In this document: positions 32,501 to 58,359 of the stretch, piece after piece
Layout: every line of letters starts with the position of its first letter
How positions within the stretch are numbered: the first letter of the stretch is position 1
Source of the DNA: a virus
Length of the DNA stretch: 58,380 nucleotides
IMG/VR virus record: IMGVR_UViG_3300028840_000492
Location: 1-58,380 of that record
Reading direction: 5' to 3' (one strand)
The notes under the pieces: model-generated
Seen by the model: the letters and a program-made list of their open reading frames with translations, nothing else
What the model was told of the DNA's origin: nothing
The model's database searches: none
Translations under genes and position numbers: made by a program

Positions 32501-35500
32501 CAAAGAGGCAAAAGAGTTAGCTAGAATTGAATCAGAAGCTAAGGCTCTGGAAAAAGAACTAGCTAATAGGGAAAAGGATCAGAAAGCATTAAAGAACACT
32601 CGTAAACCCACTGATGCTGATAAACTGATCTTTAAAGGAGTTGAGAAAGCATTAAGGAATTCTGCAGCTAAACAAAAGAACTCTCCCTTGGGTCGAGGTA
32701 TACCGTTTGAGGATATTTATAATAGTGTTGTAGCTAAGGTATGGGAACGTTTGTTGAAACTTCCTAAAGCCCAGGTTTTAGATTCTAAGAATCATGCTAG
32801 TATAGCTGCATTATTGAGAACTACTGGTAAGCATTTAGCTAAGAATATTGTTAAAGAGTTCTATGGTAAGCGTGCTGACGTTATCAAGAAGGTGGAGAAG
32901 GGTGAGAAGGTCAGCATGGACGAGTACAAAGAGGCTGGCTTATCTGATACCATGGACCATATCAACAATATATTGAACGCTGAGGATAAAGGTTTTGTTA
33001 GAGACAGTAAAAAGAAAAAAGCCAGATCTAATGCTACCATTATGATGACTATCAATGAACGAGCTGAAGCTGCTAGGTTTGACCTTGATTATATTCAACG
33101 AAAGATTTGGAGACTAGAACGTGAGATCAAGGCAGCTAAGACTCAAGATCGTAAGAATGAGTTAGCTGTTAAGTTAGTTGAACTTAAAAACGAGTATAAA
33201 GATGAAGAGCCTAATGTGAAACGCCTTGAGACTATGGCTGGAGCTGCGCCCAGTGCAGTTAAGAAGCTGACAGACAAAGAACTGTTAGCTGCCAAGGCTC
33301 AAGAAAAGAAAGCTGCTGAGGCTCAAAGAAAGAGGGCTATAGAAAATGCAAAGAATCGTACAGTTGTGTCTAAAGAAGGTTTCGGCACTGTACCTCTTGA
33401 TAAAGAGGATATACCCCGAACTAAAAACGCTCAGTATTACGCTGAAAGAGCTGCTGAAGAAACTGCTAGGCTAGAGAAAAAGGGATTTGTAGCACCTCGT
33501 CTGCCTAAAGTTGAACAAAAGCAGGAGAAGGCTGCAGAGACAACTCCTGGTAAGAAGTTTGTTCCGACTCATTCAGATAAATTGAAAGCTGAAAAAGAAA
33601 AAGCTGAAAAGATTAAGTCTAAACGAGCCGAGAAGAACGCAAAGACCTTATCTAATCCAGCAGATATTATTGATGCTAAGAATAAGCTGAAAGATATACC
33701 TCAAGATATGTTCATAGCTACAGATAGAATAAATGGCAAGACTATCATAGGTACATGGGAACAGGTAGCTGATTTAGATAAGAGATCGTGGGAGGTTAAG
33801 TCAGCTGATCAGGCTAAGCTAGAAATAATTAGTAAAGAGCAGCCTAAAGGTGTTATTACAACTACACTAAATGCTCAGCGCAAGCAACCCCAATTTGTAA
33901 TATTAACTAACCCTGACACTAAACCATCTAAAATAATCAAAGCCGATAAGATGATGGACAACTTTTGGAAATGGGTACAGAAACAACCATTGTTTGACTT
34001 TGTACAAAACATGTTAAACCAAGGTACATATCTTCATTTTATCGATGGTGCTGAAAATCTAGAACAATTACCATATTGGGATAAGTTAAATGTATTTAGA
34101 AAAGCTCAGTATAAAGAGATGTTTAACTCTGCAAATGAAGATAGAGCTGGTGCATTACACTGTGTTTCTGAATTAATCGATGGTAAGTTAATTGATCATA
34201 TTGTTATAGATATGAGTGCTTCTGAAATTGCTACAACTGAACAAATGTATGGTACTGTTGTACATGAAACTATCCATTCGGCAATATCTTATTTTAGAAG
34301 ATGGGCATCTCCTCTTCAAGTAAAACAATTTAACAATGCTTTATCTAATTTATGGCATCAAAATAAACATCAGTGGAAGGATGCTGTTGCTGCTTATGCT
34401 AAAGATCTAAGGAGTGTAGATAGAAACGCCAGAGCAAATTGGTTGGAGAAGAAATGGGGGCCTGTTGTACGGGACGCTATCGAAAATAATGTAGAAGAAA
34501 TAGCTACATATACACTTTCAGATGTACATATTGCCAACGTATTAGCTAGGATGGTAGATGTAACAGAGCGCCAAGCACCTCCGCTCAAAGGTAAAAATTA
34601 TATAAGATCTGTTTGGGACAAAATGGTAGATATTGTTCGACAGCATATAATCATGGGCGGAAGAAAGATGCTGATGACTAATCAGTATAATTTGCTTTCA
34701 TCTCTTAAAAAGGTTATGAATGAATTTGTTTTCGTTGATGGAACTTATGATTATCAACTAATGCAAAAAAGAGCTGTTACCACAGCTAAAGGATTCAAGA
34801 TAACTCCTGACACTACTATGGGGTTGTTGCTCTTAAAATCCCAACGAGTTGCTAAAGAATCAGAAATAGCTACAGCACCTCTAGCCCCGGGCGAGAAACC
34901 TACTGCTACTGATAGAAAGAATTATTTTAAATTTGTTTTGGATAAAACTACAGGAGCAGTTACTAGCCTTAGAGATTGGCTCGACATTGAATCTCCTTGG
35001 AAAGCTATGGGTGCGTATAAAACTGGTAGTGTACTCAAGAGATATTATAGTAAGAAAACTAAGTACGAAGAGATGGGTGTCAAGAAAGTTCAAGCTATTA
35101 TAGATAAGTATAAAGAAACTACTGGAGGATTTAATGAGGCTGAGTTCTTAGATGTCTTGCTAGCAGAGGAGAGTCCTAGGCTAACTAAAAGATGGAGTCC
35201 TATGAAGAGGGCTAAACTAGATCCTATTAGGGCAGAGTTCCGTAAATTCTTTGATGATATGGAACAGATCTATAAAGATCGTGGTGTCCATTGGGATTGG
35301 AAGAAGCGTAGATTGATGGAGCTTGAGCAGAAAGTGCTGGAAGCTACAGACTTTGATAAGCGCAATAAATGGCTACGCCAACTAAATACTTTAAGGGCTA
35401 GTAACTATGTTCATATTCCAGTTAAGTTAATCGTTCAGGATTTATTAAATAACAAAGAATCTATGCTCAAGAAAACTAGAAAAAATAAGCCAGCTGCGCT

Positions 35501-37274
35501 AGCTCAACAGAAAGCTTTTTTAGAAAAGGCAAACAATATAGTTAATGCGAGAAAGAGAGTTACCCTCTCTTTGGGCGAGATACTAGAGAAATATAATATG
35601 GGTGCAGATGAAATATCCCCAACTGAAATATTAATGAACTATATCTGGAGATACTCTCAAGATATGGCTAACTTAGATATTAGAGATGCTATGGTTGAAG
35701 ACGGCTTAGCTATTAAAAATAAAGGTGCTAAGAAAAAGAAACCTACTAAAAAGCAAAGAGGTGATAGGAAATTTGAATATATTAGCTTAAAAGAAGGTAT
35801 GAAAATATCAGGATTCTCCCAGTATTGGGTAGAAACCAAGGCTCTAGCTACGTTCATGCAGCTTAGAGCTGTTAAAGAACAACAAACTAAATGGGAACGA
35901 ATGTTGTCATGGGCTAAGATGGGAGCATTTTATAATCCTTTCTTTTTACCTATATATGACACTTACCAATCGTTTATGTCAGGGGCATGGCTAAGAAATC
36001 CACTCAAGATGCCTGGTTCTATAGCACTAGGTATCTATCATACTATTAAGAAAGATGATTATTATCTTGAAGCTATGGATGAAGGTCTATTTTCTAAACC
36101 ATTTGATATGCCTTGGGATGATTTTAGGCATAAGATAAAGAGGATGGCAAAGTATGGGCATAAACCGTGGCTCTCAAGACAATTAAATGCAGGGCTATAT
36201 CATGTTAAACAACTATCTAATCCAGCACGACATCCAATAAAAAGCACAAGACAATTTCTAGAATTGTTTTACCAAATGTCCTGGCATAGTGCGTGGTGGG
36301 CAGACTCTGCGATTCGTATGACAACATATACTCAGTTACGTAAAACTGGTATGTCAGCGTCTGAAGCTGCATCTTTAGCAGCTAGATTTCACGGTGACTA
36401 TGCTAGTGTTCCGCCAGCAACGAGAAGAAAGTTGAATAAATTTCTTTTTACTCCTACGTTTAAGATAGCTATGACAAAACTATATGGTGATATAATAACA
36501 GCTCCATTTAAAGTAGCACTCCGAAAAGGTGGTACTAAAGTGGATAGACAATATACTATGGGATTAATAGCATCTACAGCAGCAGTAGTAGGTTTTGATT
36601 ACGTTATGCGTAGTATGGGCTATGAACCTGAAGACGATAAGTGGTATAACTTTGGTAGACGATATACTAAAATTGATGAAAATGATGACGGAAGTCCGAG
36701 AGAGTTTGTATTCACTTGGTCGAACCCTGGTAACTTAATGCAAAGATATTTTCATAGAGCAATAACATCTTATAAAAGAAGTGGTGGCTCTTTACCATTA
36801 ACTATCTATAACACATTGAGGTGGGATATACATCCAGTATGGTCATCTCTTGCGTCAGTTCTAACAAATACAAAACCAGACGGAACTCCTATCTTTTATG
36901 AACATGATGACAAAATAGATAAAGTCTGGAAACCAGCCATGTTTATGCTGAAAAATATTGTTAGGCTATTAGAAGCTCCAGGGGATCTTTTAACTCCAGA
37001 ACCTATAACTAGTCAATCTAAACAAGACCTAGATGGATACCTTAATAGTGTGTTATATGTTCTGACTCAACTAAAGATAACCGCAATTGCATCTATCTAT
37101 ACTAGAAATCCTAAGAACATTAGGTTATACCAAGAGTTTAATGCTAAACTAAATGTATACAGATATAATCAAAAGAAGTACATGGACGAACATGGTGATT
37201 TAAACTTAGAGTGGGAAGAAAATTTCATGGATGATTTAGAAAGATACAGAGAGGAAATGCTAGATGTGGAATAA
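29592..37274 (+). CDS. Giant ejection protein: transglycosylase, HExxH, LPD38-like
   Basis: 2,560 residues. Residues about 27-165 are a Slt-type lytic transglycosylase: catalytic Glu54 in IHQESSWNP, GLMQL (70-74), AYYAGP (117-122). Residues about 285-515 are Gly/Ala-rich and membrane-prone. Residues about 535-800 are extreme Lys/Glu low complexity. A zinc metallopeptidase motif HETIH lies at 1558-1562 with a possible third ligand in EEIATYTLSD about 75 residues on. Residues about 2110-2560 (YNPFFLPIYDTYQS, RKTGMSASEAASLAARF, WSNPGN) resemble the LPD38-type C-terminal domain of large phage polyproteins. It probably digests peptidoglycan and builds the DNA conduit; the protease target, possibly itself, is unknown. 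Confidence 0.78.
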   Translation: MKLSELTGTDTAQTETKTPETETYDSNSFDPIIKKASKQYGVPEALLKGMIHQESSWNPRATTPKSSAKGLMQLIDDTAAEMGVEDPFDPVQNIMGGAKYLKQQHDKFGTWGNALGAYYAGPTNYSRIKAGEAESDPELAKLVKDTNLHVSRVAKYAKQYKEQTAPVVKAKAITDIPKFNNIANNPVQPAKVKAELKADVKKPKGQSWWKNMLEMMGGNQKKVAEIAAEQLKGVGVTYQYTDLDMDKSRVWADIMMNKGEVTPENEAKLNELNAQMQRLEDEVAQAPFMADAVGSLLPFVKESMLASGKGGLVGAGIGLTAAAAVEAIVPTVGEGMALAPGLMKLGATAMATNETAQNMLWIEAGSFYEKARAMGMDHEYAKPAAMIYGGGAAGLETMKLKYLGKLIPGSRAVANKIIKNGFVRALDKGMMSRIGKDLVSTTMGEAGVEVSQQFLDNLTMGITEELHDRYKGTDISPDNMAEWAAQVSDGLVETFIKSAAGMGIISIPGVSINVMTEGGKKTVAKQYEEALTPPAKKPPRKKPAKKEELSDAAKRAREAAKAKMKELGLAEETAKKTPEKKETKKKKEEFKLPETKKPEKKEEEAKAPEQMELPLGKEEKAEEKAPKKKQEKPKKEELTIEETEEEEGEAPKEVFKFPEPKDKKKDTKDPETKEDFQELAGKDVKVDALGEEDSTTPADQVQVTVIEGEAKGNTWNIPKKDFADELKKRKDEYAKSNKGKKELSPREKAYATGKEETEEQGKSEGIEEKAKGTGAKKETQLPKRTTEELKAEELEKERRKEVYKTLKAEFPTATEEQLQAMTDSSMERYEIGKKRTKTYQGKTELDIEEKETETQVKETAKDVKSQLAEFEKEHGIKEPPVKIKALRQLNVPGIVVDGKTYRGRALNTTDIRTNKFIEQFMTSIQEAKELAKADGKDPKNAQMVFIVDGKPVDARNAATQIGLQAKVDAVKEAKELARIESEAKALEKELANREKDQKALKNTRKPTDADKLIFKGVEKALRNSAAKQKNSPLGRGIPFEDIYNSVVAKVWERLLKLPKAQVLDSKNHASIAALLRTTGKHLAKNIVKEFYGKRADVIKKVEKGEKVSMDEYKEAGLSDTMDHINNILNAEDKGFVRDSKKKKARSNATIMMTINERAEAARFDLDYIQRKIWRLEREIKAAKTQDRKNELAVKLVELKNEYKDEEPNVKRLETMAGAAPSAVKKLTDKELLAAKAQEKKAAEAQRKRAIENAKNRTVVSKEGFGTVPLDKEDIPRTKNAQYYAERAAEETARLEKKGFVAPRLPKVEQKQEKAAETTPGKKFVPTHSDKLKAEKEKAEKIKSKRAEKNAKTLSNPADIIDAKNKLKDIPQDMFIATDRINGKTIIGTWEQVADLDKRSWEVKSADQAKLEIISKEQPKGVITTTLNAQRKQPQFVILTNPDTKPSKIIKADKMMDNFWKWVQKQPLFDFVQNMLNQGTYLHFIDGAENLEQLPYWDKLNVFRKAQYKEMFNSANEDRAGALHCVSELIDGKLIDHIVIDMSASEIATTEQMYGTVVHETIHSAISYFRRWASPLQVKQFNNALSNLWHQNKHQWKDAVAAYAKDLRSVDRNARANWLEKKWGPVVRDAIENNVEEIATYTLSDVHIANVLARMVDVTERQAPPLKGKNYIRSVWDKMVDIVRQHIIMGGRKMLMTNQYNLLSSLKKVMNEFVFVDGTYDYQLMQKRAVTTAKGFKITPDTTMGLLLLKSQRVAKESEIATAPLAPGEKPTATDRKNYFKFVLDKTTGAVTSLRDWLDIESPWKAMGAYKTGSVLKRYYSKKTKYEEMGVKKVQAIIDKYKETTGGFNEAEFLDVLLAEESPRLTKRWSPMKRAKLDPIRAEFRKFFDDMEQIYKDRGVHWDWKKRRLMELEQKVLEATDFDKRNKWLRQLNTLRASNYVHIPVKLIVQDLLNNKESMLKKTRKNKPAALAQQKAFLEKANNIVNARKRVTLSLGEILEKYNMGADEISPTEILMNYIWRYSQDMANLDIRDAMVEDGLAIKNKGAKKKKPTKKQRGDRKFEYISLKEGMKISGFSQYWVETKALATFMQLRAVKEQQTKWERMLSWAKMGAFYNPFFLPIYDTYQSFMSGAWLRNPLKMPGSIALGIYHTIKKDDYYLEAMDEGLFSKPFDMPWDDFRHKIKRMAKYGHKPWLSRQLNAGLYHVKQLSNPARHPIKSTRQFLELFYQMSWHSAWWADSAIRMTTYTQLRKTGMSASEAASLAARFHGDYASVPPATRRKLNKFLFTPTFKIAMTKLYGDIITAPFKVALRKGGTKVDRQYTMGLIASTAAVVGFDYVMRSMGYEPEDDKWYNFGRRYTKIDENDDGSPREFVFTWSNPGNLMQRYFHRAITSYKRSGGSLPLTIYNTLRWDIHPVWSSLASVLTNTKPDGTPIFYEHDDKIDKVWKPAMFMLKNIVRLLEAPGDLLTPEPITSQSKQDLDGYLNSVLYVLTQLKITAIASIYTRNPKNIRLYQEFNAKLNVYRYNQKKYMDEHGDLNLEWEENFMDDLERYREEMLDVE

Positions 37275-38493: not shown

Positions 38494-39067
38494 AGGCTGT
38501 TAAATAAGGTATCATATCATTCAACTTGTTGACCCTTATCGCATTTTGCGGTAGGGGTCTTCTATTATAGGGCCAATCTAAACAGAAGACTGTGTCCAGA
38601 GTTTTAGCCAGATCACACACTGTCTTATATCGATCGTCAATGAAGTGTGTCACTCCCAAATCTTCACAAACCCTACGTTTTTCCAGATGATTTTCAACCA
38701 AATACAGACTAAATGGCAGCCCCCTAAACCATTTCTCCCACCATTTCTCAGTTACATTTATTGTTGATTGGTGTCTTGCTGAGATGATCGTAATCGGAAC
38801 AGGGTTATCAAATAGAGATGCATAGTTATGAGCAAAGGTTATCGCATCTCTTACAGGCAGCATATACTGTTGATAATTTAGTATAGCCCGGGCGGTTTCC
38901 GTTCCAACATCACATGCCTCTTTGAGCTGATCACCATTCTCATACCCAAAAGAGGTTTTAGTTTCCACATTACCCACATCAATGTCAAACCTATCCAACA
39001 TATGCTTAGCCAACCAAGGATAACTCATGCATAAAACACCATCAAAATCAAGTGCTAATTTCTTCAT
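38492..39067 (-). CDS. HAD-family 5'-nucleotidase-like phosphatase
   Basis: 191 residues. DFDGVL (residues 7-12) supplies the nucleophile Asp and acid Asp; TIISAR (about 94-99) is motif II with Ser; HLEKRRVCEDLG and HFIDDRYKTV supply motif III Lys and motif IV acids. Similar HAD enzymes of the 5'(3')-deoxyribonucleotidase type remove phosphate from nucleotides and occur in phage nucleotide-salvage gene sets. The neighbouring dNTP pyrophosphohydrolase supports that. Overlaps it by 20 bases. Confidence 0.72.
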   Translation of the reverse strand: MKKLALDFDGVLCMSYPWLAKHMLDRFDIDVGNVETKTSFGYENGDQLKEACDVGTETARAILNYQQYMLPVRDAITFAHNYASLFDNPVPITIISARHQSTINVTEKWWEKWFRGLPFSLYLVENHLEKRRVCEDLGVTHFIDDRYKTVCDLAKTLDTVFCLDWPYNRRPLPQNAIRVNKLNDMIPYLTA

Positions 39068-39590
39068 CTAGTTCCTCCTCTATTCTAGTATTAGGTTTCC
39101 AGACAGGCCTATCGTCAAGAGCGTGTCTCCCTTCCGTTATAAACTGGAGCAAGAACAAAGCACAGCAAGCTGCATGAGCTACATGGGACAGCCCTGACTC
39201 TGGATCTTTATCCTTTCTTCTCCAGAATTTCCATAGGTGCGTGATAGCTGCCCTAAAAAGTCTGGAATAGTTAATGCCCTCATACCAGTTCCAGGCATCA
39301 TATTTTTTAGCGCCAAAGGCTAATACTCTAGCCACCTCGAAGAGAGCATCAGGTGGTATAAGATGTACAGGTACTTTCGTTGTGTCAAACTTCTTTCCCT
39401 GTGGTGGAGCTTCATCCCAGTAATCATCATCATGTGTTGATAACTCTTCTATAACAGGAAGCTTTTTCCTAATCTCCTCCTTCCACTCTGTTAATGCACG
39501 GTCATTTGCCTCTCTCCATCTTTCCCATTCTTCTGGTGTCTGTGGATTAATCTTCCAATCGTCTATTTCTGTGTCATCATCGTGATGCAT
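39048..39590 (-). CDS. MazZ-like dATP/dGTP pyrophosphohydrolase
   Basis: 180 residues after AGAGGAGG. The core (residues about 65-165) reads KVPVHLIPPDALFEVARVLAFGAKKYDAWNW, then SRLFRAAITHLWKFW..KDKDPESGLSHVAHAACCALFLL. This matches the helical phage family annotated as dATP/dGTP diphosphohydrolase that includes MazZ of 2-aminoadenine phages. Predicted to turn dATP/dGTP into monophosphates. No PurZ-like adenylosuccinate synthetase is visible, so a Z-genome is not indicated; host nucleotide turnover is the simpler role. The acidic N-terminal 60 residues are an extension. Confidence 0.75.
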   Translation of the reverse strand: MHHDDDTEIDDWKINPQTPEEWERWREANDRALTEWKEEIRKKLPVIEELSTHDDDYWDEAPPQGKKFDTTKVPVHLIPPDALFEVARVLAFGAKKYDAWNWYEGINYSRLFRAAITHLWKFWRRKDKDPESGLSHVAHAACCALFLLQFITEGRHALDDRPVWKPNTRIEEELDEEIST

Positions 39591-46922: not shown

Positions 46923-47131
46923 GCTGTCTCACCTCTGTACTTATAAGCACCAGCATTGTACACAGAGTCAGGTCTAATTAATGTAGTGCGGTACATATAA
47001 CACCGTGGGCAATGTCCACCAACTGCCCTCTTACCGCTAGGAAGTGTTGCCCCATTATGAGTATCATCAGCCATGTACCATACCTGTCCACATCCACCGC
47101 ACGTAACTTTAGTCATAAGTTTAAATCTCAT
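46919..47131 (-). CDS. Small zinc-ribbon protein
   Basis: 70 residues after GGAGGCACTAT. CGGCGQVWY (about 11-19) and CPRCY (about 41-45) form a zinc ribbon. Lies immediately after the sigma-factor gene and overlaps its end by 11 bases, so it may be a small transcription or nucleic-acid-binding partner. Confidence 0.55.
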   Translation of the reverse strand: MRFKLMTKVTCGGCGQVWYMADDTHNGATLPSGKRAVGGHCPRCYMYRTTLIRPDSVYNAGAYKYRGETA

Positions 47132-47759
47132 ATAGTGCCTCCATTCTTTTTAGTATTCTTTTTCTATCTCTAATAATAGATTGATGACCGCAATTAAACT
47201 GAGATCCTAATTGCATATAAGTTTTTCTTTCTACTTTTTTATAGATCGTATACTCAAATACAGCACGCTCTCTAATGTTAAGGCTAAGCAGAAATTCCTT
47301 GAATGTGTCTGACCCTAAAATAGATTGCTGCATTACGATCTGTTCTGTGTCGATCGGATCGTGAAAAGCCTCAACAATAAAATCATATGATTCTCTATTA
47401 AACTTCTCACGCTTTCGTATAAAATCTATCATACGAGAATAGAGTTTATACCATGCCCAAGTTCTAAAGAGCTTATCTGTTGCTGGATCATATGTAGTAA
47501 TAGCCTCTAACAAAGCAACATAACCTTCTGACTCTAACTCAGACCGATCGTGATAATTAAATCTGCTAGCAACTAACTGAGGAAGATAACTAAACTCCTG
47601 AGCTAATTGGTTAGCTAATCCTGGTTCTGTTGTTATTGGATCATCAGTCGGCTCATCTATTAAACCGTCTTTAATTTTCTTATGGTAATAACAATATCTT
47701 TTACCACAGGAATTGCGATCACAATAACTGCCATCACTATGTTTCCATTTACATCCCAT
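47121..47759 (-). CDS. Phage sigma factor with N-terminal Cys/His motif
   Basis: 212 residues from the ATG after GAGGGGGTAATTTT. Residues about 73-125 are sigma-70 region 2 (ELESEGYVALLEAITTYDPA, FRTWAWYKLYSRMIDFIRKRE: the -10 recognition and core-binding helices). Residues about 155-207 are region 4 (LNIRERAVFEYTIYKKVERK, then an HTH around MQLGSQFNCGHQSII). The N-terminal 28 residues carry a C3, C13, C18, C23, H26 cluster, a probable zinc site not found in ordinary sigma factors. It should redirect host RNA polymerase to phage promoters, presumably for later genes. Confidence 0.8.
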   Translation of the reverse strand: MGCKWKHSDGSYCDRNSCGKRYCYYHKKIKDGLIDEPTDDPITTEPGLANQLAQEFSYLPQLVASRFNYHDRSELESEGYVALLEAITTYDPATDKLFRTWAWYKLYSRMIDFIRKREKFNRESYDFIVEAFHDPIDTEQIVMQQSILGSDTFKEFLLSLNIRERAVFEYTIYKKVERKTYMQLGSQFNCGHQSIIRDRKRILKRMEALYEI

Positions 47760-47768
47760 AAAATTACC

Positions 47769-47787
47769 CCCTCTATATATATTCCGT
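47769..47787 (-). promoter_or_regulatory. Candidate phage promoter-like motif, copy 2
   Basis: ACGGAATATATATAGAGGG on the - strand, nearly identical to 319-338, lies 10 bases before the sigma-factor start and overlaps its ribosome-binding site. A T9 run (A9 on the coding strand) is adjacent. Either a shared promoter recognised by the same factor or a shared leader element. Confidence 0.35.
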
Positions 47788-47809
47788 TTTTTTTTGCCTT
47801 TTTGTCCGC

Positions 47810-49696
47810 CTATACCTCTTTTACCTCCCCATAACTGGGTCCGATTGCGATCTCGCCAGTGAGATCTGCCTTCCAATCATACCCAAAATAGTTTTTGATA
47901 TATTTCTTGAGATTGTTTCCAACTGATTCGCACAACTTGCGTAACTTCTTGAGTTCATTTTTCTTGACATCGAACACAATAGAATCATGCACTGTTAGAA
48001 TCAACTTGGACTCTAGCCCATACTTGAGCATACCCCTGCGGATTATGACCACCAATAGAGGCAAGATGTCGCCACCAGCTAACCCCTGCACTGGATAGTT
48101 CTTAATCTGGCGTTCGTTATACGGCTTCTGGAACACGAACTTACGCCCAGTGAACAGCTGTAGGTAGCCCTGCTTCCATACCTTATTGATGTTGCTGTCC
48201 TGCCATGCCTTCAAGACTTTGTATTTCTTATAGAAATCTACACATATCTGTTTCCATTTAGTCTTGCTGAAGTTAGGCATCCTCGGGTCGAGATAGAATC
48301 CCATGTACGAACCACCATAGATCATCCTAAAGTTAAAGATCTTGGCGAAGGTTCTATTCTCCTTGGTCAACTCTAGCTTCATGATGTGGACGCAAGCCTC
48401 ACTATGCTGATCAACTCCATGATTGATTTCATAGAGCATAACAGGATCTTGCGATAGCTCTGCTGCTGCACGCCACTCTATCTGGCTGAGATCATACTCC
48501 ATAATATAATCATACGTGGGTACGATACACAGCTTGATAGGTGAGGTGCTCCCTCTTGGCATATTCTGGCTGTTAGGATCTGAGCTAGTCAGCCTGCCTG
48601 TAGCTGCAACAGTCTGATTAACATTGGAATGTATCTTACCATCAGACTGTAGCTTATTGAGCAAGCCAGACTTAGTCTTTTGATTCTTGCCAAGCAGGGT
48701 CTCGACAACCTTTTTAGCCTCGCTATACTCTAAGAGCAAGGCTTTAACCTGACGTTGGAGCTTACTACGGCACACCAACCTGCCTATAGTTTCCTTATCA
48801 GCCTTCATCTGTGGAGTACTGAACACCACGAATGGTGTAAAGCCCCATCCTTTGATCTCTTTAGACTCAGCATAGTTTTTCTCCCAGTACTTAGACTCAG
48901 GTTTAGACTTTAGCTCTTGGATAGTCCATTCCTTCCACTTAGTCTTGAGAGTACCACCATACAGCATAGCTACTAGCTGGCTGTTAGAGGCAGGATTAAA
49001 ATGAGGCTCACCTGACAGCTCTATCAACTCTTGCTCTAATGCAGTGGCTTGATCACCATACTCTTTAATAAAGTCGTAGGCTTGAGCAGCGTCAAACCTA
49101 AATCCATTCATCTCAATATCAGATAGGGCAAATGTAAACTCATTGCTGAGCCTATACAGCTTCAGCATATTTTCTTTTTGAACACGCCTTATCTGACAGG
49201 TGGCGATAGCCAATGCCTTATCACAATCATCAAGGACATACTCCTCTAGCAACATGGCAGGAACATTATAAGTATCTATCCCTGTTTCCCACATTGCCTT
49301 GACTTTGTCTAGCTTGCCTTCAAGCCCATACCTTTTGGCGGTAGCATCTAAGGAATATGCGATCTCCTTTGACTGACCTTCGAGTAGGTAATCAGTTACC
49401 TGTGTACAATGTAACTCCTTACCCTCGAAGTTGATGCCAAAGCACCTCAGTATGGTCATGTCGTGCTTTAAGTTGTGAGCTACAATGACGTCAGCCTCAT
49501 CAATGTATTGTTGTAATTCCTTTAGCTTGTCAACATATGGTTCATCTGGTTTTTCCGAATGACTAAACCATAATACCCTTTTCCTCCCGTCATCAAACAC
49601 AAGCCCAACGCAACTGATATAGAACCCAGGATGATAAGGGCGAAAGGAATTATAACTATGCTCAATGTCAATACTAAGTACCTTGGGAACATGCAT
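47810..49696 (-). CDS. DNA polymerase, family A, with proofreading domain
   Basis: 628 residues from the ATG after AAGGAGGGACTA. The exonuclease domain has D10 and E12 (SIDIEHS), VIVAHNLKHDMTIL and VLDDCDKAL. The polymerase domain has motif A YDLSQIEWR, motif B RTFAKIFNFRMIYGG and motif C LTVHDSIVFDV. Phe occupies the position of E. coli Phe762; the next residue is Arg instead of Gly, and the motif C Glu is Ser (HDS). Lacks a 5'-3' exonuclease, as in T7. It works with the primase and helicase genes upstream. Confidence 0.9.
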   Translation of the reverse strand: MHVPKVLSIDIEHSYNSFRPYHPGFYISCVGLVFDDGRKRVLWFSHSEKPDEPYVDKLKELQQYIDEADVIVAHNLKHDMTILRCFGINFEGKELHCTQVTDYLLEGQSKEIAYSLDATAKRYGLEGKLDKVKAMWETGIDTYNVPAMLLEEYVLDDCDKALAIATCQIRRVQKENMLKLYRLSNEFTFALSDIEMNGFRFDAAQAYDFIKEYGDQATALEQELIELSGEPHFNPASNSQLVAMLYGGTLKTKWKEWTIQELKSKPESKYWEKNYAESKEIKGWGFTPFVVFSTPQMKADKETIGRLVCRSKLQRQVKALLLEYSEAKKVVETLLGKNQKTKSGLLNKLQSDGKIHSNVNQTVAATGRLTSSDPNSQNMPRGSTSPIKLCIVPTYDYIMEYDLSQIEWRAAAELSQDPVMLYEINHGVDQHSEACVHIMKLELTKENRTFAKIFNFRMIYGGSYMGFYLDPRMPNFSKTKWKQICVDFYKKYKVLKAWQDSNINKVWKQGYLQLFTGRKFVFQKPYNERQIKNYPVQGLAGGDILPLLVVIIRRGMLKYGLESKLILTVHDSIVFDVKKNELKKLRKLCESVGNNLKKYIKNYFGYDWKADLTGEIAIGPSYGEVKEV

Positions 49697-49896
49697 TAGT
49701 CCCTCCTTTTCCAATCATATTTAATTATCCTAACATTTACATCTTTAAATGGGCATATATATTTAGTATCTGGATTAGTTAAATACTGATAACCTACACA
49801 ATGCCCACCCAATAATGTACCACCTCCTATCGAACACGCAGTATCACGACATTCTTTAGTCCAATGACGACATATATATATTGCATCATTATCCAT
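49696..49896 (-). CDS. Small Cys-rich protein
   Basis: 66 residues from the ATG after AAGGAGGATTG. Cys at ICRHW, KECRDTACS, GHCVG and ICPFK. It resembles the next protein upstream in its opening ICRHWTKEC versus ICDSWDKLC, suggesting a duplicated pair. TAATG overlap with the polymerase. Role unknown. Confidence 0.55.
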   Translation of the reverse strand: MDNDAIYICRHWTKECRDTACSIGGGTLLGGHCVGYQYLTNPDTKYICPFKDVNVRIIKYDWKRRD

Positions 49897-50106: not shown

Positions 50107-51078
50107 TTATACCTCCGTCCACATACATTTCTGATGGTCAAAGAACACTTGAAACTTCTGCAATTGACCATCAAGCATCTTATTCTTGCTAACGTGGATA
50201 AACCTAATGCCATCATACCTTGCGTCATCAGACAACCTGCCAATACCTATAGCATAATCCAACTCACCCTGTATGCCAACCCTACTGCCATAAATATCAG
50301 ACAGGTTGAGGTACTTTTTATTCTCAGCCTCACCAACACCTTGAGCAAGACCTAAGATAGCGCACTGGTATTCTTTAGCTGCCTCTCTGTACCAGTTAAA
50401 CAGCTCACGTTGCACCCCTACCTCATTCGTGTTACGATTAGCCTCAAGCCCAACCTTGGTAGCTTGGTCTATAACTAACACGTACGGATGCCATTCATCT
50501 AAGATCATACGCACATGATCTACGTGCGTCACAGCATCCAGTACCTTTACCCTGTTATAGCCTAGCTCCCTACGCCTACGCTCTGCTCCTTCTATGTCAT
50601 CAGCAATTTCTAAGCGACTCTGTCCAAGGATAGCCTGCGTCAATCTGAATGATGTTCTTGAGGCGGATTCTTCGTTGCCTGCATAGACGATCGTATCACC
50701 TGTATCCATAAGTTGTTGGGCAAAAGATGCAACACATGATAGTCCGAAGCTAGTTTTACCACTATCAACAAAAGCATATACAAGTCCCAAGGTTCCACGG
50801 CGTACACCTCCAATCGTTTCGTTCAATGTATTTAAATTCCACCCTATTCCTGTGAAGTTCACCTCTTGATCAACCATCTGTGCCACACTGAGATCGCATG
50901 GTCGTAGCACCACCGACTCTCGTGGTGGATTACGCATCATACTGATGTACGTATCGACCTGCCCCCTCACATTATGTAGCACCCCACTTTTGTTACCTTC
51001 CATTACAGGCAAGAGTTCATTGATAATCGTAGTGGCATAATGTTTCTCTACCAATTGCTCAAGTAAATCTTTAGCCAA
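50107..51078 (-). CDS. DnaB-like replicative helicase
   Basis: 323 residues from TTG. A RecA-type core: Walker A variant AFVDSGKTSFGL (about 102-113), VYAGNEES, Walker B VLVIDQATK, LGLAQGVGEAENKKYLNLSDIYGS (motif 3, with Gln) and FIHVSKNKM (arginine finger region). It unwinds DNA 5'-3' for the family A polymerase and pairs with the separate primase gene. The start is odd: no ATG or GTG fits, the TTG has no site, and protein-like in-frame sequence (LEDAFSLSINQG) runs back to 51120. Confidence 0.8.
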   Translation of the reverse strand: MAKDLLEQLVEKHYATTIINELLPVMEGNKSGVLHNVRGQVDTYISMMRNPPRESVVLRPCDLSVAQMVDQEVNFTGIGWNLNTLNETIGGVRRGTLGLVYAFVDSGKTSFGLSCVASFAQQLMDTGDTIVYAGNEESASRTSFRLTQAILGQSRLEIADDIEGAERRRRELGYNRVKVLDAVTHVDHVRMILDEWHPYVLVIDQATKVGLEANRNTNEVGVQRELFNWYREAAKEYQCAILGLAQGVGEAENKKYLNLSDIYGSRVGIQGELDYAIGIGRLSDDARYDGIRFIHVSKNKMLDGQLQKFQVFFDHQKCMWTEV

Positions 51079-51428: not shown

Positions 51429-52307
51429 CTATACTCCTTTCTTGAAACTTATTAGAGTTCTAATTTCATCAGCACTATATAGTTTAGGGTCTAATTCAGA
51501 GTTCACTAGTATAGCAGGCACTCCTATCTGTCTAGCTTTATCGGCATAATTAATAGCCTTAGTCAAGACATCTCGATCGAGCCATATAAATAATGTGTCT
51601 GCTCTTCTGAACTGGTTAAGTAAGGTGGTTGTGATTCCGTGTCCTAAGAGAGCTACCGCTGTGTAACCTGTGGCATTATGCACACGAATAGCGCTCAATA
51701 CATCCTCAACTACCAATACTTTGTCTGTGCTCCCCTGTATTACGAACCTAAACTCAGTGCCATTGATCTTTTTAATCAGGTATTTCTGCCCTTTATCTCC
51801 TTTCTTCCAATCTACATCCCTTCCTACCCAACCCAACAGCTTAGCCTGTATCTTATCCTTGGTATTCAGGAATTTATAAACAGGAATGATTACCCTATTG
51901 TACAAAGGACTCCAATGAATCCTATGTTGTTTAATGTCATCGTCTCCGACACCATATTTGTACAGCCATGTAAACGCTTTCACTGGAGCTTTATTATTCC
52001 ACTCTCCCCACATAGGGACGGCGTCTGTAGGCAAAGCTACAGTCCAACATGGGCGTCTGTCTATTTGTTTTTTCTCTATGGATTCTTTGGTAGCCTTGGG
52101 ATCTCTGTCCTCTAACGGCAGAAAGCCAGACAACCCACATCGAAAACAATTAAACACCCATCCATCATGGCTACGCATAACGCTCATGGCTGCGTCAGAA
52201 CTACACACAGAACCATCACGCCTATATTGATGTATAACCCGGGTATTTTCACCAGGATACCTTAGCCCCATAGCAGCTTCTTTAACTTCTTCAGGTACAA
52301 CTACCAT
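51429..52307 (-). CDS. T7 gp4-like DNA primase
   Basis: 292 residues after GGGAGGG. An N-terminal zinc-binding region (C35 and the pair CFRCG at about 54-58) precedes a TOPRIM core: VLVVEDVLSAIRV holds the catalytic Glu, LFIWLDRDV the D-x-D. YNRVIIPVY and YLIKK lie in between. It is equivalent to the primase half of T7 gp4, here split from the helicase gene. It makes RNA primers at the fork. Confidence 0.85.
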   Translation of the reverse strand: MVVVPEEVKEAAMGLRYPGENTRVIHQYRRDGSVCSSDAAMSVMRSHDGWVFNCFRCGLSGFLPLEDRDPKATKESIEKKQIDRRPCWTVALPTDAVPMWGEWNNKAPVKAFTWLYKYGVGDDDIKQHRIHWSPLYNRVIIPVYKFLNTKDKIQAKLLGWVGRDVDWKKGDKGQKYLIKKINGTEFRFVIQGSTDKVLVVEDVLSAIRVHNATGYTAVALLGHGITTTLLNQFRRADTLFIWLDRDVLTKAINYADKARQIGVPAILVNSELDPKLYSADEIRTLISFKKGV

Positions 52308-53524
52308 GTGAACCCTCCCTCATGAATTTTACCGATTCTAACTTCAGGATCATATCCTATCGTAACCTGACTATCAACACAGAACAAGCAACCACAGGTC
52401 ATGCATAGTGTGTCACTGCCATCATTGTATGGTGAGTCCATAAATGTAGTTCCTTCACACTCAGGGCAACCTTTATCCCTATCTTCTTCTATGACATCAT
52501 CACCATCTATTTCATCATCCATATCTATTGCGCCATTGCAATGAGGACACTCAGCTGTACCATCAGTATTCATATGCCTAATCTCTGTCTCAGATACTAA
52601 GTTATTACAGTAGGCACACAAATAGAAGACTGCAACTCCTGTATGCTCGTCTTCCTCTGGAGAATCGTCAGATGTGGTAGCGGTAGGCTGCTCTACATCA
52701 CTAGGAGTTAGCCCATAATACTGTGGCTTATCATCCTGATCTGTCTGCCATTTCTCCCAATCAAATACCCCAGTACTATAGTAGGCTTTATCGTATGCTG
52801 ACCCAAACTGCTCGTAATATGAACTAGCTGATATGTTTGTCTTTCCACTATAGGTATTATGATTTCCCCAGTATCCATCTTGTCGATGTTTCCATCCACC
52901 ATAAACCCCTGTTCCTACCGTTGTCGTGCTAACCTTTAGGGCTTTGTAGTGTGTGTTGCTGTAGAATACACCGTTCTCGTCCTCGTGCCATGTGCCAAGG
53001 CGTGTTATAAATCTGCCAGAGGTTATAAACCATCTATTTCTACCTGTCTCTAAAAGTTTTTCCAGAATATCCATTAGACGTTCATCATTCTTAGGAGCCT
53101 TCTGAATAGATGACCATAGAGGGTCTATAAACTTCTGTATAGCAACCATAGTGTCAGAGTAGATGCCCTGACCAGAACCTATTACACCATTATGCACCAC
53201 GAGATACTTAGATTGGTACTTGGTCTTTCTCATAGAACCCAAGTCTTTTGAGATCATAAATGGATGTGTATTGCCACCATCCTTATTTCCAGATGTACCA
53301 ATTCTGAAATGAATAACTAGGCAATCGTCTTCCGTAAACTTATGTTTGGAAAATGCTTTCCAAAACTTATTCCATTTCATAAATCCCTTCTCAACCATCC
53401 AAGATTCCTTAGACGGTACGTAGTAGGCGAACCCAGCTCCATCAGAATTGTTTTCCCAGCAAATCTTGAGAGTTTCCTCAGTCGGTACAGGCTTATTGTG
53501 TGGCTTGTAAGCGATAATACACAT
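52301..53524 (-). CDS. Class II glutamine amidotransferase with zinc ribbons
   Basis: 407 residues from ATG-TGT, so Met removal exposes Cys2 as N-terminal nucleophile; the 27-base longer reading would hide it. Class II residues are R74 (HFRIGT), N112-G113 (VHNG) and D124 (SDTM). The enzyme hydrolyses glutamine and delivers ammonia. The C-terminal 110 residues hold two zinc ribbons (CAYC...CPHC; CPEC...CMTC). It sits directly after an amidoligase and an ATP-grasp gene, suggesting it feeds ammonia to, or trims amides with, that pathway. Confidence 0.8.
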   Translation of the reverse strand: MCIIAYKPHNKPVPTEETLKICWENNSDGAGFAYYVPSKESWMVEKGFMKWNKFWKAFSKHKFTEDDCLVIHFRIGTSGNKDGGNTHPFMISKDLGSMRKTKYQSKYLVVHNGVIGSGQGIYSDTMVAIQKFIDPLWSSIQKAPKNDERLMDILEKLLETGRNRWFITSGRFITRLGTWHEDENGVFYSNTHYKALKVSTTTVGTGVYGGWKHRQDGYWGNHNTYSGKTNISASSYYEQFGSAYDKAYYSTGVFDWEKWQTDQDDKPQYYGLTPSDVEQPTATTSDDSPEEDEHTGVAVFYLCAYCNNLVSETEIRHMNTDGTAECPHCNGAIDMDDEIDGDDVIEEDRDKGCPECEGTTFMDSPYNDGSDTLCMTCGCLFCVDSQVTIGYDPEVRIGKIHEGGFTW

Positions 53525-53525
53525 A

Positions 53526-55196
53526 TTAGCTAATCTCCTTAAAGTAGTCATTAATCTGGTGAGTGATGCTTCTAAACCTATTAGTATTATTTAAGAATGA
53601 TTTATAATCTGTAAGGTTTACCATATTCATAGTACAGTCGGCTGTGTATTCATACATCGACTGCAAGAACTCAATGTAAGAACTAAAGCGATCGTATGCT
53701 GTAGTGCTAGCAAATATCCTGAGTTCTATTGTTGGCTGCCTATCCCCTGATGTTAGATTAATAGCTGAATTTCTAACCTGGGATAAGTTTATCTTATCCT
53801 TACTCATTCTCGCAGCATGATTCCAATCATCCTCTGCGTAACGAGCATAGCTGGACTGCCTGTGAGCGACATAGTCAGTCATAAATGTCCTATGTTTTGG
53901 GTTATAAATCATCTTGATGAATTTATATAACTGAAATGTATTAAATGCATCCCTGCTCATATGGACATGGATGCCCGTAGATGTATTAGGATACATACCA
54001 TTCTCAGTCATATAAGTACACATCCTTTTAAACAACTCTCTATTTGTCTTAAACCACTCCCAGGTAAAAGGATGCGTCACCATCTCAAACCCACGGTCAA
54101 TGGAGCTATCTGACTTGATATATAAGAACTTTTTATCAGCCATTTTAATTAGGTCTGCCCCTTTTTTCTTCTTTTCTGAATCAAAATCACTTTTAACATT
54201 AATTTCCCATTCAACACCATAGTATAATCGGTCTGATCTATACCTTTGGGTGTTCACATGATGGAAATTAGGAGCAGGCTTGTAGCTATAACTATTAATA
54301 ACATTGAGTTCTGCATAGCACTCACCACAGATCTGAGCATAGGGATTAGCTTCAGTGGAATGACGTTTCATATTTTGCTTTAGATCATGTTTACCACAAA
54401 CAGCACAAGTTCCAATAACCTGCTTTAAACAATGATCATTGCATACCATGATAGAAGGTCTATTCCCATATTGTGTAAAGCTCATATCAGAATACCTAGC
54501 CTGTATATCTATCCCTATACCATCTTTTAACAGCATACTACAAGCTACACAGCTATTATATTTATTATAAATACATTTAATACATAGGGTTTTAGTTTGG
54601 TACTTAACACCATCAAATATCTTTTTATGGTGCATGCTTTGGCTTGATACATAATCACCACAATCTATACATTGCTCAAAATAATTATCAGCACAATACT
54701 GACAGATAGTGAATTTGTTAGCCCTTAGTGAACCTGTTCCTACTGGGACAGCCTCAAACCCTGAATCTGGAGTTCTAGTAGGAACCCAACCGTCTATTTT
54801 ATCTGAGTTTGGATGCAGACGACCACATAATTGACAGTAATATTTGCCTTTACGATGGATTCCTTTGTTCGCAGCTATCACATTCAGCATTTCAGTGAGG
54901 TAATAACTATATTGTGCTAATCTTTTAGAGAAGTTAGCATTACTATAACTATTATTATTATTACCACTAAATAAGCTAGCCCAACCCACTTTAGGCAGGT
55001 TTAATGGAGGTTGGGTCAAGTCAAACAAACGAGGCTTCTTTGTCATACCAAGCCTCATAAGCGACTTGCTAATGTCATTATCATATTTTTTAATAATTGA
55101 TTTTAATCTGTCATCTACACAGGCTCTGCAATTACACTGCCCTTCGATGAAACAATTTTCGACATCCTTTTTCATTTGAGAAATGATCTTAGACAT
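53526..55196 (-). CDS. Amidoligase with N-terminal zinc-ribbon array
   Basis: 556 residues. Residues about 20-295 hold at least five Cys clusters (CNCRAC, CQLCG, CQYC/CIDCG, CIKC/CVAC, CAVCG/CGEC). Residues about 325-530 match the glutamine-synthetase-fold amidoligase (COOH-NH2 ligase) family: YYGVEWEIN with two metal-binding Glu, SSIDRGFEMVTHPF, GIHVHMSR and TIELRIFASTT. Members join carboxyl and amine groups using ATP. The ribbon array probably binds a substrate macromolecule, nucleic acid or protein; which one is unknown. Overlap-coupled to the amidotransferase (TAATATG). Confidence 0.82.
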   Translation of the reverse strand: MSKIISQMKKDVENCFIEGQCNCRACVDDRLKSIIKKYDNDISKSLMRLGMTKKPRLFDLTQPPLNLPKVGWASLFSGNNNNSYSNANFSKRLAQYSYYLTEMLNVIAANKGIHRKGKYYCQLCGRLHPNSDKIDGWVPTRTPDSGFEAVPVGTGSLRANKFTICQYCADNYFEQCIDCGDYVSSQSMHHKKIFDGVKYQTKTLCIKCIYNKYNSCVACSMLLKDGIGIDIQARYSDMSFTQYGNRPSIMVCNDHCLKQVIGTCAVCGKHDLKQNMKRHSTEANPYAQICGECYAELNVINSYSYKPAPNFHHVNTQRYRSDRLYYGVEWEINVKSDFDSEKKKKGADLIKMADKKFLYIKSDSSIDRGFEMVTHPFTWEWFKTNRELFKRMCTYMTENGMYPNTSTGIHVHMSRDAFNTFQLYKFIKMIYNPKHRTFMTDYVAHRQSSYARYAEDDWNHAARMSKDKINLSQVRNSAINLTSGDRQPTIELRIFASTTAYDRFSSYIEFLQSMYEYTADCTMNMVNLTDYKSFLNNTNRFRSITHQINDYFKEIS

Positions 55197-55206
55197 ATAC
55201 TATCTC

Positions 55207-56373
55207 CTATCTGTGTGCGTTGCTGTTAAAATCATGGATTAATTCAGCTATGGTAGATTCTAAAGCTGATACCCTTGCTCTCAATAACTCTAATTCTGAA
55301 GGCTCATTAGTATCATGCCAATCTCTTAGCCCAGGAGGTAGTGAGCTGCCGTATACGACAGACTCCAATCTTGATTCCAAGTCTCTAAATAAACCTACCT
55401 CTGAATCTTCATCACACGGAGGACGAACAGGAGAAACATGAATCTCGTCTTCCATTAATGGATCCATTACAGCATGGCTCATTGCCCTCTCAAAATTAAA
55501 TGCCTCACGCTCAGGCGATTCATCCAAGGAGTCACAGATACGTGTTAATGGTATCTCGTACGCTGACGCATTGCACTGGTCATTACGTGGTGGAACTGGT
55601 ATAATAAACTTGCCATTACCTCCAGGATACCACATTGCTAACGCCCTGAATGTGTTATAATACCATACAGCCGTGCGTTCCATTGTAAACCCGGGTGCTA
55701 AGTTAGCTTCAACAAACCATACATTATAATCCTCATCCACAATAAAATCAATGGCAGCAAAATCATACCCGAGGCGTTCTAGTATTTTCTTAGAAAACTC
55801 CTGCGCCTTTTTAAAGACGTTATATGACTCAGGATGTTCTACTGTGATGAACGAACCACCAGTATGATTATTCCAGGTAAGCTGAGTATTACCATCCTCA
55901 TGCACTCGTTTCTGACAGAGGTATGATTCTTGAGTAATCCATTTTGCTGCGTGTACTCTAAGCTCATACTGTCGTATATGCTGAAGGCTTTCCTGAAAAT
56001 AGTGAGTGCCACCGCCTGTATAATCTTCTGCTGGCATGATACCTCTGCCCCCAAGAGAATAATACGGCTTAGCTATGTATTTTTTATCTGGCAAACAATC
56101 ACTCCTATGTTTAACTGAATGAGGAGTATGGTAATCTGTCAGAACGGACACAGCCTTGGCACATTCGTATTTATTGCCATACTGAGTCTTATTAAGTATG
56201 CGCTCAGCCTGATCCCACTTAGCCCTATTAGATCTGCTCTCTAACCATCTGCCTAACCTCTGTCCTTGCAGACCGTAGTTGACAATTAATCTAGGATCGT
56301 TACTGTTCATTCCAACAATGTTTCTAATCTTTTTGTAGTAGGTTCCCCTACCGATCATTAGGATATTACTCAT
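55207..56373 (-). CDS. ATP-grasp ligase
   Basis: 388 residues. ATP-grasp features: KYIAKPYYSLGGRGI (Lys102 and Gly loop), YELRVHAAKW (about 136-145), FAAIDFIVDEDYNVWFVEANLAPGF with metal ligands Asp209, Glu222 and Asn224. Such enzymes form acyl-phosphates and then amide bonds. The last 35 residues form a coiled coil (LELLRARVSALESTIAELI) suited to oligomerisation. Next to the amidoligase and amidotransferase it probably performs a second ligation step. Confidence 0.8.
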   Translation of the reverse strand: MSNILMIGRGTYYKKIRNIVGMNSNDPRLIVNYGLQGQRLGRWLESRSNRAKWDQAERILNKTQYGNKYECAKAVSVLTDYHTPHSVKHRSDCLPDKKYIAKPYYSLGGRGIMPAEDYTGGGTHYFQESLQHIRQYELRVHAAKWITQESYLCQKRVHEDGNTQLTWNNHTGGSFITVEHPESYNVFKKAQEFSKKILERLGYDFAAIDFIVDEDYNVWFVEANLAPGFTMERTAVWYYNTFRALAMWYPGGNGKFIIPVPPRNDQCNASAYEIPLTRICDSLDESPEREAFNFERAMSHAVMDPLMEDEIHVSPVRPPCDEDSEVGLFRDLESRLESVVYGSSLPPGLRDWHDTNEPSELELLRARVSALESTIAELIHDFNSNAHR

Positions 56374-56374
56374 T

Positions 56375-57544
56375 TTAGTTAACTCCTTTACAGTTGATGA
56401 TTGGTTTAATGAAATTTGATATTCTCATGTTAAACTCTTGAGCCTCTAATACTTGAATTATATCCTTATACGCATCAGGGGCTTCATCGAGATTACGAGA
56501 ACTGACTGTGGCTGCTACATCAGCCTCAATTACCTGTTGTCTAAAGTCCTCTACTTTCAGTGTTTTCTTAGCTTGATTCCTGCTCATGGTTCTACCAGCG
56601 CCATGAGAGGCAGATATTAAACCCATAGAATCACACTCACCCTTTGCCAGAAATGTACCAGTAGTTACACTGCCTGGGATAACCATCTTTTTATCCTTTG
56701 AGGCGTCAATAGCTCCCTTCCTATGGATGAAAGCCTTTCTTTCTGCGTTATATTCAACATAGTTATGAGGGCAGAAGATAGCATTAACAACAGAGGCGTA
56801 TCCATAGATACCTAAATCCTGCATAATTCTAGACATTTTCTCTTTAATACTCTTATGACTGTCCTCTACGAATCTTGACAACCAATGCCTATCTTGTAGA
56901 TAATCCATGCAGAGCTGACTCTCATTCTCAAAGTAATGCTTATTGCTGTTCTTGAGAATGTCCATATAATGCTGAGCCACATCATGCCCAATACCACGGC
57001 TACCAGTGTGTATAACAAACCACACTTGAGGGTCATCGTCTGAGATTCCTATCTCTATGAAATGATTACCACTGCCGAGTGTACCCATCTGCTCAATATA
57101 ATTCTTTTCAGTCCAGAACTTTTGCAGAGCAGCACTGCAAGGGGTGTATGATGCAGCATAGAATCTTTCAGGCTCTTTATACCGCTTAGTACCCATTGGT
57201 ATACGCTCCTCAATAGCTGCCTTAATAGCATCTTGGTTCTGGTATACCTCATCTATAGCGAATGTAGTTGGCGTAGCTGATACTGAGCAATAAATATCAT
57301 AGCCAACAACCTCTGGCATAACTGCTTTTGATGCTAAAGCTGTGCCGATCGGTACGCTATAGCCGAGGTGAGCATCTGGCATTAGCTCTGCTCCTATCAC
57401 AACGTCATCGTTTTCCAACATAAACTCCTCTAATTGATCGACAACGTCCTTACCGTACAGATTATCTGCTTGTTTAGATTCTAAGGCGCTATACCCCATG
57501 TAATGATGACGTTTATTATTGATGTATATGGTACTACAGGTCAT
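56375..57544 (-). CDS. rtcB: RtcB-type RNA ligase
   Basis: 389 residues (E. coli RtcB 408). Conserved features: MPDAHLGYSVPIG (55-67), metal ligands D83 and C86 (VGYDIYC), N160-H161 (GSGNHF), H179 (HTGSRG), H260 (PHN), RKGAID, and guanylylated H314 in SHGAGR. The enzyme seals 2',3'-cyclic phosphate or 3'-phosphate to 5'-OH RNA ends with GTP and Mn. Phage copies probably repair tRNAs or mRNAs cut by host anticodon nucleases. No tRNA genes are seen here. Only one base separates it from the ATP-grasp gene. Confidence 0.88.
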   Translation of the reverse strand: MTCSTIYINNKRHHYMGYSALESKQADNLYGKDVVDQLEEFMLENDDVVIGAELMPDAHLGYSVPIGTALASKAVMPEVVGYDIYCSVSATPTTFAIDEVYQNQDAIKAAIEERIPMGTKRYKEPERFYAASYTPCSAALQKFWTEKNYIEQMGTLGSGNHFIEIGISDDDPQVWFVIHTGSRGIGHDVAQHYMDILKNSNKHYFENESQLCMDYLQDRHWLSRFVEDSHKSIKEKMSRIMQDLGIYGYASVVNAIFCPHNYVEYNAERKAFIHRKGAIDASKDKKMVIPGSVTTGTFLAKGECDSMGLISASHGAGRTMSRNQAKKTLKVEDFRQQVIEADVAATVSSRNLDEAPDAYKDIIQVLEAQEFNMRISNFIKPIINCKGVN

Positions 57545-57932
57545 AATTTTGCTCCTCTGCCCATTTAGGCATTTTTTTATAGTAAGTTATTGTTTTTGTT
57601 TTACCCTTTTTAGAACATTCCTTTTCCACCTCTATGTGTTTATCTATGTTTGCAAGCATAGGTTTTAATTCTTTAAATAATTTCCAAGGAATACATAGAC
57701 CTGAGTATGATATAGTATCCCCTACACGAGCACTCCATTCCCTCTGAGGACAGGTAGTGGTGGCACAAATACACTCAGAATCTTTTGTTTTCCCAAAATA
57801 AGGGTCGGTTTTATCCAACTCAGCATGAGATGGATAGTGTGTATGGCTGTGCTCACATTGGTTTTTGCCAGAATAAAACTGACAATGCAAACTGAATGAA
57901 CACACATAAAGTTCTGGTTTAATAGTCTTCAT
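57534..57932 (-). CDS. Cys-rich protein, unknown function
   Basis: 132 residues from the ATG after GATTGGGAAG; a longer reading from 58049 overlaps the previous gene and is unlikely. Cys cluster CSFSLHCQFY, NQCEHSH, CICATTTCPQ suggests a metal site with His. The basic C-terminus (KKGKTKTITYYKKMPKW) could contact nucleic acid. Overlaps RtcB by 11 bases. Confidence 0.55.
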   Translation of the reverse strand: MKTIKPELYVCSFSLHCQFYSGKNQCEHSHTHYPSHAELDKTDPYFGKTKDSECICATTTCPQREWSARVGDTISYSGLCIPWKLFKELKPMLANIDKHIEVEKECSKKGKTKTITYYKKMPKWAEEQNYDL

Positions 57933-58359
57933 CTTCCCAATCACCACACTCACAATCATCGTAATGTTCCCCACATTCAGGACAATAATCACAATAATCG
58001 CAAGCCCCTTCACTGTTAAGTGCTTCACCACATGAATAACAATATTCATCAGCGTCTACTGGGTGCTGATGAGTAACAACCTTGAGTCTCTTGGTATCAT
58101 CCGTATCAAATAACTCAGCTATTTGATCGTGCAACATAAATCTATAGATGTTGCCGTTAGGATGGATTCTCAAAACTCGGTAGTGTTGTGTGCCTGAAGT
58201 CTTAGGGAGTACTAAAACAACGTCTATTCCGTCATTAGCAGGGCCAGACATCAAGAATTTGAATGTTAAAACAGATCCATCACGAAGTTTTAACCTACCA
58301 TCTTCTTCATGGTTATTGAGCCACTTAGTAAGATCAATTGGTTTGTTTTTCTTGGACAT
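57919..58359 (-). CDS. Protein with C-terminal double zinc ribbon
   Basis: 146 residues after AAAGGAAAATATA; first gene of the - arm in this window. The N-terminal 100 residues are beta-rich without a recognised family. The C-terminus (about 104-140) has CYSCGE, CDYCDYCPECGE and CECGDW, a double zinc ribbon, and a very acidic end. Being first in the arm it may be an early gene. Confidence 0.6.
   Translation of the reverse strand: MSKKNKPIDLTKWLNNHEEDGRLKLRDGSVLTFKFLMSGPANDGIDVVLVLPKTSGTQHYRVLRIHPNGNIYRFMLHDQIAELFDTDDTKRLKVVTHQHPVDADEYCYSCGEALNSEGACDYCDYCPECGEHYDDCECGDWEDEDY

Follow-up and report, generated by a model that had tools for sequence, protein, structure and literature searches.

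A four-gene run in a tailed phage: a probable divergent amidoligase, glutamine amidotransferase and ATP-grasp cassette with an RtcB ligase as its neighbour

When four ligase- and amidotransferase-like genes lie in one row of a phage genome, the question arises of whether they form a single system, and of what that system acts upon. Such a row is present on the minus strand of an IMG/VR record of 58,380 bases, the whole of which is referred to here as the window. The four consecutive genes encode an RtcB-type RNA ligase, an ATP-grasp ligase, an amidoligase and a class II glutamine amidotransferase (GATase). In the original prediction, RtcB and the zinc ribbons of its neighbours were taken as a hint that a nucleic acid or ribonucleoprotein is the target. 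The analysis described below leads to three statements, which are likely to hold jointly: the last three genes (the trio) belong to a phage cassette, RtcB is independent of it, and the trio carries out amide or peptide chemistry.

The four genes and their surroundings

The record is from a virus of bacteria. It is a tailed phage: the plus strand of the window carries the terminase, portal and major head genes, and the minus strand those for a family A polymerase, a DnaB-like helicase and a primase. No terminal repeats were found on the window contig, and a nucleotide search of the phage collection gave no relative for this region. The window's own proteins, used as single queries against IMG/VR, found no relatives, and alignments were therefore used as queries instead. 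The features of the region are as follows.

47810-49714, minus strand: family A DNA polymerase, context (PF00476, 1.3e-52)
50107-51078, minus strand: DnaB-like replicative helicase, context (phrog_19, 4e-36)
51429-52307, minus strand: DNA primase, context, placing the cassette beside replication genes (phrog_47, 6e-29)
52301-53524, minus strand: class II glutamine amidotransferase of 407 residues with a Met-Cys start (Shine-Dalgarno sequence, residues conserved in 12 relatives, GlmS match)
52388-52618, minus strand: zinc-ribbon-like cysteine clusters in the GATase tail (five CxxC)
53526-55196, minus strand: GS-fold amidoligase of 556 residues, PF12224, with a zinc-rich N-terminal half (Pfam 1e-9, invariant residues, structure model)
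54318-54836, minus strand: cysteine clusters of the amidoligase, residues about 121-293, marginally LIM- or treble-clef-like (eight CxxC pairs)
55207-56373, minus strand: ATP-grasp peptide ligase of 388 residues (Pfam, invariant residues, structure model)
56375-57544, minus strand: RtcB-type RNA ligase of 389 residues, a neighbour probably independent of the cassette (PF01139, residues aligned to solved RtcB structures)

Both the place and the identity of the four genes, as first predicted, are upheld by the open reading frames, by Pfam and, for the GATase, by a profile of its relatives. The genes had also been described as tightly packed. Packed they are, but the row overlaps with its neighbours at both ends, the GATase stop with the start of primase and RtcB with the gene upstream of it, so that the packing alone does not single out these four. 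The key catalytic residues are conserved in all of them, as had been claimed, in alignments with relatives and, for RtcB, with solved structures. RtcB scores 236.7 bits against PF01139 (cut-off 27) and retains the metal- and GMP-binding residues, namely Asp, Cys, Asn-His, His, His and HGAGR.

The ATP-grasp protein lies just above the Pfam cut-offs, with 27.6 against 26.8 for YheCD, 23.4 against 20.1 for TTL and 24.1 against 24 for Dala_Dala_lig_C. Across 26 relatives, K68, E137-x-R139, D209, E222 and N224 are invariant. The ExR motif is known as a mark of those ATP-grasps that form peptide-like bonds (PMC4431377). The amidoligase is recognised as Amidoligase_2 (39.1 bits, cut-off 22), and G327-x-E329-x-E331, D363, E371, G408-x-H410-x-H412 and E491-x-R493 are invariant in 46 relatives. 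Structures of both proteins were predicted with a mean pLDDT of 72-74, the cores being confident and the linkers poor. The ATP-grasp model matches LysX/ArgX, RimK, the D-Ala-D-Ala ligase Ddl, the peptide macrocyclase PsnB and TTLL6, and the amidoligase model matches YbdK, glutamine synthetase, the gamma-glutamylmethylamide synthetase GmaS and PafA. On account of the ExR signature and these fold matches, the three enzymes look like amide or peptide chemistry and not like nucleotidyl transferases; very probably, they build amide or peptide bonds.

By itself, the GATase remains under the Pfam cut-off (GATase_6, 18 bits against 27). A profile built from 12 of its relatives, however, finds E. coli GlmS at 1.5e-7, which makes the identity certain, and C2, R74, H87, N112-G113 and D124 are invariant in these relatives. 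A class II enzyme needs a Met-Cys N-terminus, and an open reading frame begun at the upstream ATG at 53551 would bury the nucleophile. The start was therefore placed at 53524, where AAGGAG stands ahead of ATG-TGT, one base past the amidoligase stop.

Immediately upstream of RtcB lie two genes for small cysteine-rich proteins (57534-58049 and 57919-58359, minus strand), beyond which the contig ends; in Pfam, they match neither RtcA nor RtcR. The product of the second has cysteine clusters and an acidic tail at its C-terminal end. The LysX match suggested that it might be a LysW-like acidic zinc carrier protein. This candidate was rejected, as no counterpart was seen upstream of the trio in the closest relative (L090, IMG/VR 3300049484_000199).

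A conserved pair with a variable shell

Amidoligase, ATP-grasp and GATase sets had been predicted to be known from comparative genomics, and they are indeed named in the literature. The set has been named in LUZ24-like phages (PMC3890496), and a 'peptidoglycan modification cassette' has been described in Pseudoalteromonas phages and others (PMC5498523). The phiEco32/LUZ24/RIO-1 type goes back to Iyer 2009 and Hardies 2013, as these are cited in PMC10580990 and PMC5498523. ATP-grasp occurs in one of the two cassette layouts described.

Amidoligase or ATP-grasp members of the cassette were detected in about 300 phage records. Profile scans of IMG/VR yielded 80 amidoligase and 27 ATP-grasp loci, the latter becoming 30 with three seed loci. 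A GATase is present in 79 of the 80 amidoligase loci, the exception (L031) ending right after the gene, and in 97 of 107 phage loci that hold both genes the gap between them is 150 bases or less. Among the 30 ATP-grasp loci, a GATase is nearby in 27 and an amidoligase in 23. The distance matrices of amidoligase and GATase are correlated (rho 0.74 over 49 non-redundant loci, reached in 0 of 2000 permutations). As a control, the same 23 loci gave 0.70 for amidoligase and GATase against 0.19 for amidoligase and primase. In a second control, with 45 actinophage loci, the correlation of amidoligase with WhiB was nearly as high (0.64), so that shared phage descent explains part of the co-variation. 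Thus, co-inheritance of the amidoligase and GATase is supported, in part by shared phage descent, and the neighbourhood analysis proposed with the original prediction bears out their adjacency as well as their co-variation. WhiB-like genes were also seen in 51 of the 86 loci without ATP-grasp; many pair-only cassettes are therefore probably in actinophages.

A COOH-NH2 ligase type 2 occurs in 17 of the 30 ATP-grasp loci and a gamma-glutamyl cyclotransferase (GGCT) in 13; both are common, not defining. In the window, neither a PF14395 match for the former (a Pfam search that was silent for the control genomes too) nor a PF06094 match for the latter was obtained, and the profiles built here found none of either. 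The survey thus describes a firm core, the amidoligase and GATase pair, with a variable shell of ATP-grasp, COOH-NH2 ligase, GGCT and, rarely, RtcB, as well as a zinc-bearing subtype. With this picture, a minimal set of two or three proteins can be picked for reconstitution.

The trio of the window is almost certainly a divergent member of this cassette. Like the phiEco32/LUZ24/RIO-1 type, it has a PF12224 amidoligase, a class II GATase and an ATP-grasp in one gene run beside primase and helicase. Unlike that type, it lacks the COOH-NH2 ligase and GGCT, and its amidoligase bears N-terminal zinc clusters, which are mostly missing there. With the pairs of mycobacteriophage Marvin and of the OM43 phages MEP401/402 (PMC10580990), it shares the adjacent amidoligase and GATase and the N-terminal cysteine clusters of the amidoligase, and with the Marvin type also those of the GATase; however, no ATP-grasp was found beside those pairs, and protein identity is about 23-29%. 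In L090, the order of ATP-grasp, amidoligase, GATase, primase, helicase and polymerase is the same, both partners bear zinc clusters and the ATP-grasp is 41-44% identical. Since the COOH-NH2 ligase and GGCT are common in the ATP-grasp type and zinc clusters are typical of the pair-only type, the window holds a variant of a known cassette. What is modestly new is this variant, with zinc clusters on both partners and an ATP-grasp but neither COOH-NH2 ligase nor GGCT.

RtcB and the zinc clusters

If RtcB and the trio worked together, the zinc domains might hold a tRNA, the ribosome or some other ribonucleoprotein, to which the trio would conjugate an amino acid or peptide, and RtcB would reseal the cleaved RNA ends. 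The adjacency of RtcB in the window and in locus L142 (IMG/VR 3300003877_000002), its position about 7-8 kb from the cassette in Proteus phages, and the resemblance of the ATP-grasp to RimK, a modifier of ribosomal protein S6, are in keeping with this. The co-occurrence of RtcB with the trio in related phages, which had been proposed as a check, is nevertheless not borne out. RtcB is present in 661 of 50,697 phage records and in 2 of 50 cassette records, adjacent in neither, and is thus absent from the other 48. Conversely, the amidoligase and GATase pair lies within 9 kb in 3 of 80 RtcB loci, with L142 being the one case of direct adjacency. L090 keeps the trio and the replication genes, but RtcB is nowhere in its contig of 27,197 bases, and no tRNA genes were found in the window.

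Owing to the rarity of RtcB near cassettes and its absence from L090, an RNA or ribonucleoprotein target is not supported; in spite of the adjacency in L142, such a target is very unlikely. In L142, as in the window, the cassette and RtcB are adjacent and next to primase. There, however, RtcB lies at the opposite end, directly after the GGCT of a full cassette and ahead of primase, a gene order unlike that of the window; a COOH-NH2 ligase is also present, and the amidoligase has no zinc clusters. The row in L142 (2339-13085) holds a gene that looks, by eye, like a class I glutamine amidotransferase, then those for COOH-NH2 ligase, amidoligase, GATase, ATP-grasp, GGCT, RtcB and primase, and one for a protein that, also by eye, is radical-SAM-like. 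It is most improbable that RtcB and the trio are one repair and modification unit directed at RNA or the ribosome, assembled at least twice (in the window and in L142), in which a cleaved tRNA or ribosomal component receives an amino acid or amide from the zinc-rich pair and the ATP-grasp and is resealed by RtcB. RtcB and the cassette both belong to the early region, beside replication genes, which may suffice for an occasional adjacency. A mild true enrichment of RtcB near cassettes may exist as well, the numbers being small and the sampling uneven. In all likelihood, RtcB is an RNA end-repair ligase independent of the cassette and its neighbour by chance, and a tempting false lead is thereby removed.

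The zinc clusters themselves are as predicted. At least five clusters had been proposed for the N-terminal part of the amidoligase, where eight CxxC pairs were counted, and the GATase was said to end in zinc ribbons, in agreement with the five CxxC after its domain. In the alignment of relatives, C216, C219, C252, C256, C264, C267 and C290 of the amidoligase are conserved at 90% or more, and C303 and C306 of the GATase tail are invariant in 12 relatives. Against solved structures, a profile of the amidoligase N-terminus found LIM domain chains alone, at a marginal E of 0.003. LIM domains bind proteins, and such a resemblance would be more in keeping with protein contacts than with binding to nucleic acids.

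At least two N-terminal CxxC are present in 91 of 116 amidoligases and at least two after the domain in 86 of 115 GATases, and such clusters are common in relatives that have no RtcB nearby, which again speaks against an RNA target. In 44 non-redundant, untruncated loci, the clusters co-occur on the two partners, with 24 loci having them on both, 10 on a single one and 10 on none (Fisher p 0.002), and amidoligase clusters were observed in 23 of the 25 loci that lack an ATP-grasp and in 6 of the 19 that have one; these tables are descriptive, as related sequences are counted and the searches were seeded with window-like genes. The window, L090, L104, L105, L111 and L116 form a mixed group. The maximum of the set is an amidoligase in L111 (9796-11631), with 18 CxxC pairs before its catalytic domain.

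Proposed chemistry and candidate substrates

As proposed here, the GATase would hydrolyse glutamine to ammonia and presumably hand it on. The GS-fold amidoligase would use ATP to activate a carboxylate, presumably as an acyl phosphate, and link it as an amide to either this ammonia or a different amine. The ATP-grasp would then, if this order is right, form the second amide bond by attaching an amino acid. The zinc clusters would most likely dock the two partners or hold the substrate. The cassette and the replication genes are probably expressed together.

The likeliest substrate would be a host envelope peptide, for example a peptidoglycan stem peptide or its precursor, a choice that is possible and made tentatively. 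Envelope or peptide modification, the alternative in the original prediction, is a published hypothesis, and peptidoglycan action of the cassette has been put forward from gene context (PMC10580990, PMC5498523, PMC11945000). No experimental proof of its substrate or of a cell-wall role was found in the literature searched. The benefit to the phage might be superinfection exclusion, an idea raised for the pair in OM43 phages (PMC10580990), or preparation for lysis (PMC11945000).

A small metabolite or gamma-glutamyl peptide might instead be made, serving nitrogen metabolism, as a signal or as an anti-defence molecule, with no polymer changed. The folds nearest to the amidoligase include YbdK and GmaS, carboxylate-amine ligases that act on small molecules, and nitrogen metabolism has been proposed for phage ZRK32 (PMC10945688). 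However, no carrier, transporter or tailoring gene was seen beside the trio, and GGCT is absent from the window. This explanation is somewhat unlikely.

It is likewise conceivable, though rather unlikely, that host proteins are modified. The ATP-grasp would then add amino acids, as RimK does on S6 and TTLL enzymes on tubulin, and the amidoligase and GATase would amidate or extend the tag. The matches to RimK, TTLL6 and the protein ligase PafA are consistent with this, and protein modification has been proposed for phage ATP-grasps of another clade (PMC4431377). Nevertheless, D-Ala-D-Ala and small-molecule ligases are equally good matches for the ATP-grasp, and the GGCT and COOH-NH2 ligase of related cassettes suggest gamma-glutamyl metabolites.

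DNA hypermodification was also considered and set aside, as no such genes were recognised among the window proteins scanned, a subset of the open reading frames. Elsewhere in the window, the product of 39048-39590 (minus strand) strongly matches the N-terminal domain of a dATP/dGTP diphosphohydrolase (PF18909, 2.6e-32), the family to which MazZ of the 2-aminoadenine (Z-genome) phages belongs. A protein of 2,560 residues in the structural half (29592-37274, plus strand) appears, by eye, lytic transglycosylase-like at its N-terminal start. A weakly sigma-factor-like protein (47121-47876, minus strand; phrog_351, 5e-6) adjoins the polymerase.
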